A stretch of DNA of 20,555 nucleotides from a virus. Position numbers and translations under genes: made by a program. Where the stretch lies: positions 1 through 20,555 of the IMG/VR virus record IMGVR_UViG_3300008459_000526. One strand, 5' to 3'. Every line of letters begins with the position of its first letter. Position 1 is the stretch's first letter. Of the stretch, positions 3,847 to 6,018 are shown piece by piece. The notes beneath the pieces were generated by a model. It was not told the DNA's origin. It worked only from the letters and a program-made list of their open reading frames with translations, and searched no databases.

Positions 3847-4701
3847 ATGGCAAATTTTTCAGATTTTAAAAAGAAGAGTAAGAATTCAGTAGCATCTTTG
3901 ACAGAACGCCTTGACAAACTTTCTTCCAAGGAAAGTTACAAGGATGACCGCATTTGGAAGCCCGGTATCGATAAGGCTGGAAACGGTTACGCCGTAATTC
4001 GTTTTCTTCCCGAGATCGATGGCGAGGATAGCCCATTCGTGGCTGTGTATAGCCATACATTCAAGGGCAAGGGTGGTTGGCTGTATGAAAACTGCCCAAC
4101 TACGATTGGTGAAAAGTGCCCGATCTGTGCAGCAAACACAGAACTTTGGAACAGTGGTATCGAAGACGACAAAAACATTGCTCGTCAGAGAAAGCGTAAG
4201 CTGACTTATGTTTCAAATATTTTGGTTCTTGAAGATCCTGCCAATCCGGAGAACAAGGGAAAGGTTTTCCTTTATCAGTACGGTACAAAGATCTTCCAAA
4301 AGATTCAGGGCCTTGCTCATCCAGAGTTCCAGGATGAGGTTGCCGTCGATCCATTTAACTTTTGGACCGGAGCAGATTTTAAGATTAAAATTCGCAATGT
4401 AGGTGGTTATGTTAACTACGACAGAAGCGAGTTTGCAACTCCTGCCCCACTGTTTGGTGGAGATGACAAGAAGCTTGAAGAGATTTGGAAGAAGCAGTAT
4501 CCTCTAAAGCCATTCATCGACAAGAGCCAGTTCAAGAGCCTTGATGAGCTCAAGGAACGGTTCAAAAAGGCTGTTGGCGATGACATTCGTTCTCAGTTTA
4601 CTGAGACCAAAAACATTGAGGATGATGTGGAATCACCCACCATCACTGATGTTGAGGAAAAAGATCCTCTTCAATATTTCTCCGAAATGGAGAATGATTG
4701 A
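3847..4701 (+). CDS. gp32: Single-stranded DNA-binding protein, T4 gp32
   Basis: A 284-residue protein (T4 gp32 has 301). It coats single-stranded DNA at the phage replication fork and in recombination. Residues 8-13 (KKKSKN) occupy the place of the basic LAST motif used for cooperative filament formation. The core has the structural zinc site H70-x12-C83-x7-C91-x2-C94; the H-x12-C spacing is the same as in T4, and WLYENCP and CPICA are typical. A core rich in aromatic and basic residues follows (about 110-220). The C-terminal tail from about 257 is acidic and ends in EMEND, as expected for the segment that recruits replication partners. The gene has its own sigma70-like promoter, a leader hairpin and a terminator. 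Its codon use is richer in G+C than that of the surrounding late genes. Confidence 0.97.
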   Translation: MANFSDFKKKSKNSVASLTERLDKLSSKESYKDDRIWKPGIDKAGNGYAVIRFLPEIDGEDSPFVAVYSHTFKGKGGWLYENCPTTIGEKCPICAANTELWNSGIEDDKNIARQRKRKLTYVSNILVLEDPANPENKGKVFLYQYGTKIFQKIQGLAHPEFQDEVAVDPFNFWTGADFKIKIRNVGGYVNYDRSEFATPAPLFGGDDKKLEEIWKKQYPLKPFIDKSQFKSLDELKERFKKAVGDDIRSQFTETKNIEDDVESPTITDVEEKDPLQYFSEMEND

Positions 4702-4702
4702 G

Positions 4703-4729
4703 AAAAGCCCCCGAAAGGGGGCTTTTTTT
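4703..4729. terminator. Bidirectional intrinsic terminator after gp32
   Basis: GCCCCC (4707-4712) pairs with GGGGGC (4717-4722) around a GAAA loop. It is flanked by A4 on the left and T7 on the right, and A-T pairing extends the stem to 10 bp. It ends gp32 (stop at 4701) and the minus-strand operon, whose last gene takes its TAA stop from the T-run at 4730-4728. The design is the same as that of the terminator at 1171-1199. Confidence 0.93.
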
Positions 4730-5168
4730 ATGACCACTCTATCGGTTGGCTTACCCTTGACTCTTCTTTGTTGAAGAATAAAAATCCAGAGGAAAACGAT
4801 GTTCGCTGTTCCGTGAATGATTTGGGGTCTGGATTTTTATTTGCCAAAGCAGAAACTATTTTATACAAATTTTGTATTGAAGGATTTACACTTTTGTCTA
4901 CCACATCTTTTAAAGTAGACATCTCTTTTTTGAATAATTCTATTTCTTCTGGTGGATTTAATTTTACAGATTCGGGCGATTTGTTCTGCCCGACCATAAA
5001 ATTAGAATCATCTAGTTGTGTTGCAGTAGTTGTTTTATCGGAATCTTCATACTCAACATCTCCTATGGATGAATTTTCCTGAGATTCTTCAGAAAGCAAA
5101 TCTGCTGGGTCTATCAAATAATTTTGACTTATTTGTTCAGCTTGTACGTTTTTTTCTTCTTCTGCCAT
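4728..5168 (-). CDS. Acidic hypothetical protein, last gene of the minus-strand late operon
   Basis: A 146-residue acidic protein I do not recognise. The N-terminal third is rich in Glu, Asp, Ser and Gln and looks disordered. Residues about 74-112 form a likely helical segment (EEIELFKKEMSTLKDVVDKS). The C-terminus has GFLFFNKEE and ends PIEWS. Its ATG overlaps the TAA of the frameshift extension (TAATG at 5170-5166), so translation is probably coupled to the chaperone frame. In P2-type tails the gene after gpE/E' encodes the tape measure; this protein is far too short for that. It may be an assembly or scaffold partner (inference only). Confidence 0.6.
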   Translation of the reverse strand: MAEEEKNVQAEQISQNYLIDPADLLSEESQENSSIGDVEYEDSDKTTTATQLDDSNFMVGQNKSPESVKLNPPEEIELFKKEMSTLKDVVDKSVNPSIQNLYKIVSALANKNPDPKSFTEQRTSFSSGFLFFNKEESRVSQPIEWS

Positions 5169-5365
5169 TAGTGATTAAAGAATCCTCTGGAGTTTATTTT
5201 TTTATCCATCTCGATTTGCTTTTGCTCCGCTAGCAAACTGATGTAAATTTCTCTTTCCCAAAAAAACATGTTTTCCAATTCCGATAAAGACCACTTGTAA
5301 TGATTTACCAATGAAAAATTTGTTTTGTAAAAATCTATCAGATCTACGAAGTTTGAAGCAAGGTA
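5168..5365 (-). CDS. -1 frame extension of the gp26/gp51-like chaperone (E'-like domain)
   Basis: This is a 65-codon reading frame, open from the T7 slip site to TAA at 5170-5168, in the -1 frame relative to the upstream gene. After the slip it reads YLASNFVDLIDFYKTNFSL, then a helical segment with HYKWSLSELENMFFWERE followed by IYISLLAEQKQ. The pattern of S-L-S-E-L-E followed by a WEREIY-like motif and a helix is what I associate with the C-terminal part of gp26/gp51-type and gpE'-type tail chaperones. No ATG, GTG or TTG with a ribosome-binding site exists in this frame near its beginning, so independent initiation is unlikely. A frameshift would give a fused product of about 283 residues. 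The otherwise gene-free 5171-5343 stretch is fully explained by this frame. Confidence 0.78.
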   Translation of the reverse strand, partial: YLASNFVDLIDFYKTNFSLVNHYKWSLSELENMFFWEREIYISLLAEQKQIEMDKKINSRGFFNH

Positions 5366-6018
5366 AAAAAACTTAGAGTACCAGATACCTCCTTTTCACC
5401 CTCTTCTGTCATTACAACAAAATATAGTTCTGGTTGCTCTTTAGATATTTTTTCTATTTCTTTTACAAAAGAATATGGTAGGTTGTCTACCAATTTTTTA
5501 AGATCATCTGGTAAAAATTTATCTAAATCAAAAATTTCATTTTTAATGCTGATTGATTTGAGATATTTTTTTATGATTGCTGTTTCGTCTGCAAAATCAA
5601 CAGTAAGAAGATCTTTTATTCTAGGTGTTTTTATAGTTCCAAATATTCCGTCTTTTATTTGGACGGTCTTGGAAGTTATGCTGTTTCTTGTTTTTATATC
5701 CGATATGTTTATTTTTACCGGAGTATTTGATATTTTTAAATTTAACTCTTCTCCAACACTCTTTCCACGCATATGCAGATAAAGATATTCGGCATCGGCC
5801 AGACAAAGATCATCTACATTTGTCGCTGGAGAATTGTTTTTTAAAACAGTCACCATTGCCATCAGTGAAAGTTTTTTATTTTCTTCTTTCAGTATTATTG
5901 ATATGTTTTTTGAATCTTTGACTTTGAATGGAGTATAGGAAACTGTTTTTTTGGAAAATGGCAAAACAGTTTCGTAAGTTGGGGAAAGTTCTTTTGTTAA
6001 AAAATTTATGTCAATCAT
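5344..6018 (-). CDS. gp26: T4 gp26/gp51-like baseplate hub assembly protein (zero-frame product)
   Basis: A 224-residue protein in the zero frame. The core motif LADAEYLYLHMRGKSVGE (73-90) followed by a short strand-rich segment is characteristic of the T4 baseplate hub gp26/gp51 family (Pfam T4_baseplate, from memory). It starts with MIDINFLTKELSPTYETVLP and ends shortly after a SFFTLLQTS tail. In T4 these proteins assist assembly of the hub and tape measure. T4 gp26 is 208 residues and gp51 about 249. The start lies 2 nt after the stop of the tube-fold gene, with no ribosome-binding site, so it is probably coupled. The last codons cross a T7 slip site, from which the -1 frame extends the protein by 65 codons. 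Confidence 0.82.
   Translation of the reverse strand: MIDINFLTKELSPTYETVLPFSKKTVSYTPFKVKDSKNISIILKEENKKLSLMAMVTVLKNNSPATNVDDLCLADAEYLYLHMRGKSVGEELNLKISNTPVKINISDIKTRNSITSKTVQIKDGIFGTIKTPRIKDLLTVDFADETAIIKKYLKSISIKNEIFDLDKFLPDDLKKLVDNLPYSFVKEIEKISKEQPELYFVVMTEEGEKEVSGTLSFFTLLQTS
5365..5394 (-). promoter_or_regulatory. Programmed -1 ribosomal frameshift signal
   Basis: On the minus strand the zero frame reads AGT TTT TTT ACC, so U-UUU-UUU forms a full X-XXY-YYZ slippery heptamer at 5371-5365. AAGGAGGT at 5394-5387, a full anti-Shine-Dalgarno match, lies upstream inside the coding region with 15 nt between. Internal Shine-Dalgarno sequences upstream of slip sites stimulate -1 frameshifting in dnaX, where the spacing is about 10 nt. 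Here the AAGGAGGT has no start codon in the -1 frame at usable distance, which argues for a stimulator role. The zero frame stops at TAG 5346-5344. Confidence 0.78.

Follow-up and report, generated by a model that had tools for sequence, protein, structure and literature searches.

Several tailed phages make a short tail assembly chaperone (TAC) and a -1-extended form of it from one gene, as in P2 (gpE and gpE+E', with the slip site T TTT TTG) and lambda (gpG and gpGT). For T4-like phages, Sullivan et al. (2010, PMC3037559) described cyanophage and vibriophage gp51 as lacking its first ~200 residues and Aeromonas phage Aeh1 as lacking gp51, with frameshifting unmentioned. The title of Vladimirov et al. 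(2022) announces that TAC genes were identified in T4-like phages, together with a mechanism distinct from frameshifting, and a passage in a 2025 paper (PMC12846349) cites this work for poly-T -1 signals in T4-like TAC-N genes. Judged by that title and that citation, the system is apparently the same gene family as the one studied here. Our literature search for a gp26/gp51 frameshift found no direct report, and this prior work was reached via the 2025 citing paper.

The window analyzed here is a 20,555-nucleotide stretch of viral DNA (IMG/VR record IMGVR_UViG_3300008459_000526). It very probably carries a frameshifted TAC gene of an uncultivated T4-like phage, with a short and a long form, and the mechanism is the known TAC-N/TAC-NC tail-assembly-chaperone frameshift.

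A gp26-like frame with a gp51-like extension

The features listed in a first-pass annotation of the window (the TAG of the zero frame, the run of seven T, the -1 frame, the TAATG overlap and the upstream AAGGAGGT) were all found when the minus strand was checked (Table 1). The first -1 codon of the extension is TAC, starting at position 5365, and the -1 translation yields 65 residues (YLASNF...RGFFNH); the short product has 224 aa, and the fused product has 283 aa and reads SFF-YLASNF at the slip-site junction. No ATG is present in the -1 frame of the early extension, in agreement with the first-pass remark that it offers no usable start codon.

Table 1 Coordinates of the frameshifted gene and its surroundings in the window.
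Feature	Position	Strand	Remarks
Zero-frame CDS, short form (TAC-N, gp26-like), 224 aa	5344..6018	minus	ATG 6018, TAG 5346-5344
Slippery heptamer T TTT TTT, in phase	5365..5371	minus	context AGT TTT TTT ACC
AAGGAGGT, internal Shine-Dalgarno-like element	5387..5394	minus	15 nt upstream of first slip T
-1 frame extension, gp51-like part of TAC-NC	5168..5364	minus	65 codons + TAA 5170-5168
Region 3' of slip site	5277..5364	minus	no significant hairpin in the window; sister clades have a hairpin here
146-aa ORF	4728..5168	minus	ATG 5168-5166 overlaps -1 stop TAA 5170-5168 (TAATG)

We propose that most ribosomes would translate the gp26-like frame as far as its TAG, giving TAC-N, and that a minority would shift back by one base at T TTT TTT and read 65 more codons, giving TAC-NC; slippage would be aided by pairing of the 16S anti-Shine-Dalgarno (anti-SD) with AAGGAGGT. 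We infer the slippage itself and its rate, and also that the short and long forms would serve the tape-measure and tube proteins as chaperones. At the sequence level, the analysis supports the first-pass proposal that -1 slippage yields gp26-like chaperone forms of about 224 and 283 residues.

The zero frame belongs to Pfam family PF12322 (T4_baseplate; 85.8 bits vs a cut-off of 24.5), with a match over residues 13-218 that covers nearly the full profile and reaches the slip codons. It also matches phrog_150 of the PHROGs collection ('baseplate hub'), and this match spans both the zero frame and the extension. The extension further matches phrog_634 ('baseplate hub assembly catalyst', gp51) with an E of 4e-16, and its profile matches the C-termini of T4-type gp51 (hhalign 97.7%, E 2e-12), which establishes its homology to the T4 gp51 C-terminus and confirms that it is gp51-like, as first suggested. 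Residues F19, W38, E39 and Y43 of the extension are invariant among 71 relatives, and the gp26 and gp51 profiles match each other (hhalign 99%, E 2e-18). DUF6760 was rejected as a relative of the extension (weak match, E 0.085; no match in seven genomes).

Modelled apart with AlphaFold2, the zero-frame part and the extension gave confident structures (pLDDT of 91 and 82, respectively). The TAC-N model had no significant match to solved TACs (HK97 chaperone 2ob9: E 2.1, probability 0.13), its comparison with 3fgx gave an E of 0.69 and a probability of 0.72, and a PDB fold search with the extension model returned no match; a sequence search for relatives of solved structure gave none that was credible for either part. 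Because no solved TAC was matched significantly, the TAC assignment rests on gp26/gp51 homology and on gene logic.

The 146-aa ORF has no Pfam or PHROGs match, and its overlap with the -1 stop makes translational coupling possible. The window-clade loci that were read have ORFs of similar size after the extension, with very divergent sequence. When the neighbors were checked for a tape measure gene, the window was found to continue past the 146-aa ORF with an opposite-strand ORF (3847-4701); several relatives have an ORF of 530-656 aa one or two genes downstream, without identification as a tape measure.

Slip site and stimulatory signals in relatives

Relatives were drawn from IMG/VR and from isolates, and the resulting 183 loci (141 distinct) take in the window clade, Kyanoviridae, Vibrio VH1, Sinorhizobium phiM7 and phiM9, Ochrobactrum OC, Methylophilales Melnitz-2, and S-CRM01. 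In 183/183 loci, a T TTT TT[T/C/G] heptamer lies in phase and leads into a homologous -1 frame that is open, and KVP40, Aeh1, HTVC008M, and pf16 likewise have the slip site and an open -1 frame. In all 141 distinct sequences, the codon before the Phe-Phe pair is NNT and the first Phe codon is TTT; Phe-Phe pairs elsewhere in the same genes are slippery in 3 of 90 cases, vs 141/141 at the slip site. Given background codon frequencies and 15 protein clusters (<50% identity), the chance expectation is ~2e-5 for the two slip codons alone. The run has exactly seven T in the window clade and reads TTTTTTC in Kyanoviridae and in independently sequenced isolates. The slip site and -1 frame are neither chance nor sequencing error, and, since many marine relatives have the same signal, they are of a kind already known.

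In 50 of 51 window-clade sequences, pairing with the anti-SD is strongest at a single offset, -24 to -20 relative to the slip site, and a duplex of <= -6 kcal/mol occurs at this offset in 98% of the 51 vs 0.55% of the background. The other 90 sequences show the pairing at -18 to -14 in ~88% of cases (background 2.4%). The Glu codon within the Shine-Dalgarno (SD) element is GAG, not GAA, in 50/50 window-clade sequences vs a background of 9.9%, and in 74/86 other sequences vs 31%. As GAG is preferred at this codon far above background, the element is not explained by amino-acid conservation, which supports the internal SD stimulator postulated at first. In E. coli dnaX the SD lies 10-14 nt from the slip site; the spacing in the window is slightly longer, which counts against the frameshift model.

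On average, the 60 nt 3' of the slip site fold better than shuffled sequences (mean z of -2.5 and -2.2). Kyanoviridae have a hairpin of 13 pairs starting 5 nt after the heptamer, in which 80% of cells are paired vs 30-50% when slid, and 34 cells are doubly changed. A covarying hairpin of another design occurs in the window's main sister group (7 nt after the heptamer, 10 pairs, 26-nt loop), with 91% of cells paired vs 24-67% when slid, 18 doubly changed cells, and both arms showing synonymous changes (GTA/TTT to GTG/TTC). The slid control allows for relatedness; the shuffle control of this covariation analysis ignores it. At the window's own slip site a simple downstream hairpin was not significant (z of +0.30 and +1.70), and the window together with its eight closest relatives (nine sequences) gave no consensus fold downstream of the slip site. 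This absence of a detectable stimulatory hairpin in the window and its closest kin counts against the frameshift model.

One gene or two, and competing explanations

Two PF12322 genes are present in T4, 44RR, phiKp_12, and POP12, where gp26 ends without a T-run slip site: the shorter gp26 stops at the slip position, and the longer gp51 runs in frame into the extension. In these phages both forms would be supplied by the paralogous genes 26 and 51. T4 gp26 ends with TTC TTT GAG TTA CTA TAA, which keeps Phe-Phe in a non-slippery form. Acinetobacter phage ZZ1 also has two PF12322 genes, the second one broken, and its gp26 has no slip site; its gp51 is split between two frames at a T run and is annotated twice, reflecting either a sequencing error or a slip within the gene. 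The slip site was present in 13/13 isolate genomes tested that have one PF12322 copy (P-SSM2, VH1, phiM9, phiM7, Melnitz-2, Mosig, Aeh1, KVP40, HTVC008M, pf16, S-PM2, S-CRM01, and OC), and a single copy was found in five long window-clade contigs, which may be incomplete.

The sequences from two-gene phages group together in the phylogenetic tree (support 99/94), beside KVP40 and Aeh1 (92/87). Tentatively, this sequence tree, which has long branches and no root, fits a single duplication into gp26 and gp51 inside Straboviridae. We lean slightly toward the reading that frameshifting is ancestral in the T4-type superfamily and was replaced once by this duplication, and that its signal was rebuilt from different parts: an SD with a 13-bp hairpin in Kyanoviridae, an SD with a 10-bp hairpin in the sister group, and an SD with T7 alone, without detectable hairpin, in the window clade.

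Database records treat the locus in several ways. Those for P-SSM2, S-PM2, and other cyanophages list the two parts as neighboring genes, gp26 and gp51; the S-CAM1 record has gp26 but no gp51, and in Mosig the annotated gp51 begins deep within the conserved region. In Aeh1, reported to lack gp51, a gp51-like -1 ORF follows TTTTTTC at the gp26 end. In Kyanoviridae the ATG annotated as the gp51 start falls inside the 5' arm of their covarying hairpin (e.g. L003:2513-2543), which makes it probable that many annotated gp51 starts are artefacts.

Such records are the main argument for a separate gp51 gene, with its own start or with re-initiation after the gp26 stop: most cyanophage entries show two genes, gp51 was taken as a shortened gene by Sullivan et al. 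(2010, PMC3037559), an ATG occurs about three codons past the slip site in most loci outside the window clade, and in KVP40, phiM9, and S-CRM01 an ATG overlaps the gp26 stop. For the window this explanation is refuted by the absent start codon; near the extension start, ATG is missing in 44/51 window-clade sequences, and ATG, GTG, and TTG are all missing in 28/51. S-CAM1 and Mosig likewise lack a start codon at the extension head yet keep slip site and frame, homology to the T4 gp51 C-terminus extends back to the slip codons, and the Kyanoviridae ATG lies in a conserved hairpin arm with the SD too far upstream to serve it, all of which makes a separate gene extremely unlikely. A sequencing or assembly error, with six or eight T in a true single frame, could be suspected because homopolymers are error-prone and because bacterial contractile-injection-type loci have both parts fused in one frame, but it is refuted by recurrence: window-clade loci from many independent metagenomes have exactly seven T, and TTTTTTC recurs in independently sequenced isolates, leaving this explanation a negligible probability.

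If the frame were changed by the RNA polymerase slipping on the T run rather than by the ribosome, a run of seven T as in the window clade would be suitable, but in Kyanoviridae it has only six T followed by a C, the codon phase of the run is preserved, and an SD at fixed distance and hairpins at 5-7 nt are stimulators of ribosomes; we regard transcriptional slippage as very unlikely. The slip site could also be real and the protein a structural hub subunit instead of a chaperone, as the annotations 'baseplate hub subunit' and the lack of a significant structural match to a solved TAC would have it. Against this, one gene giving a short form and a rarer long form follows TAC logic, a chaperone or cofactor role was proposed earlier for T4 gp26 and gp51, and the title of Vladimirov et al. 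(2022) claims the identification of T4-like TAC genes, so that a structural role appears unlikely. Programmed -1 ribosomal frameshifting in a TAC gene, with a major short and a minor long form, is the most likely reading.

Comparison with known systems

The initial interpretation of the window was partly supported, being right in substance and wrong on the lack of precedent: it was aware of no comparable mechanism among relatives of T4 gp26, and the same site occurs in Kyanoviridae, KVP40, Aeh1, pf16, and Sinorhizobium phages. The claim also fails because the literature, in the passage of PMC12846349 cited above, already links T4-like TAC genes with poly-T slip sites. The 'gp51' that was seen as truncated in cyanophages and vibriophages, or as missing in Aeh1, corresponds to the -1 portion of gp26, which resolves a puzzling annotation into one gene, and database records with two genes or with an invented internal gp51 start are probably wrong. 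The occurrence of one slipping gene vs two non-slipping paralogues in one virus group provides a natural test of the need for a short and a long chaperone. Novelty is limited to the new clade, the stimulator layout and possibly the single-duplication picture, given the earlier work on T4-like TAC genes, which reportedly names gp26 and gp51.

The first-pass label 'P2 gpE/E' style' holds for the mechanism and not for the sequence. Profile comparison gave hhalign probabilities of 0.1-0.4% for P2 gpE or E', no relationship to lambda gpG/T was detectable either (<1%), and size and modelled fold are unmatched; P2 gpE is an analogue only. By eye, the P2 E+E' C-terminus SLTELITWREKAL looks like SLTELENMMPWERE, a motif in the extension of the T4-like proteins, a likeness with no statistical support.

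Bacterial tail-like (contractile-injection-type) loci share PF12322, an FF-like junction and a similar C-terminus, which is weakly similar to the phage extension; they differ in having one uninterrupted frame that encodes the long form only. Their PF12322 genes adjoin tail-sheath and tube-like genes, and no separate short form is visible. T4 has PF12322 in both gp26 and gp51, with the extension borne by gp51, and differs from the window in using two separate genes without a slip site. A close counterpart is the gp26 and 'gp51' of cyanophages and vibriophages (P-SSM2, S-PM2, KVP40), where the order, the slip site, the SD-like element and the homologous extension are the same, although that version is annotated as two genes. 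Within this likeness, Kyanoviridae combine T TTT TTC with an SD ~6 nt nearer and a hairpin, whereas the window combines T TTT TTT with an SD at 15 nt and no detectable hairpin.
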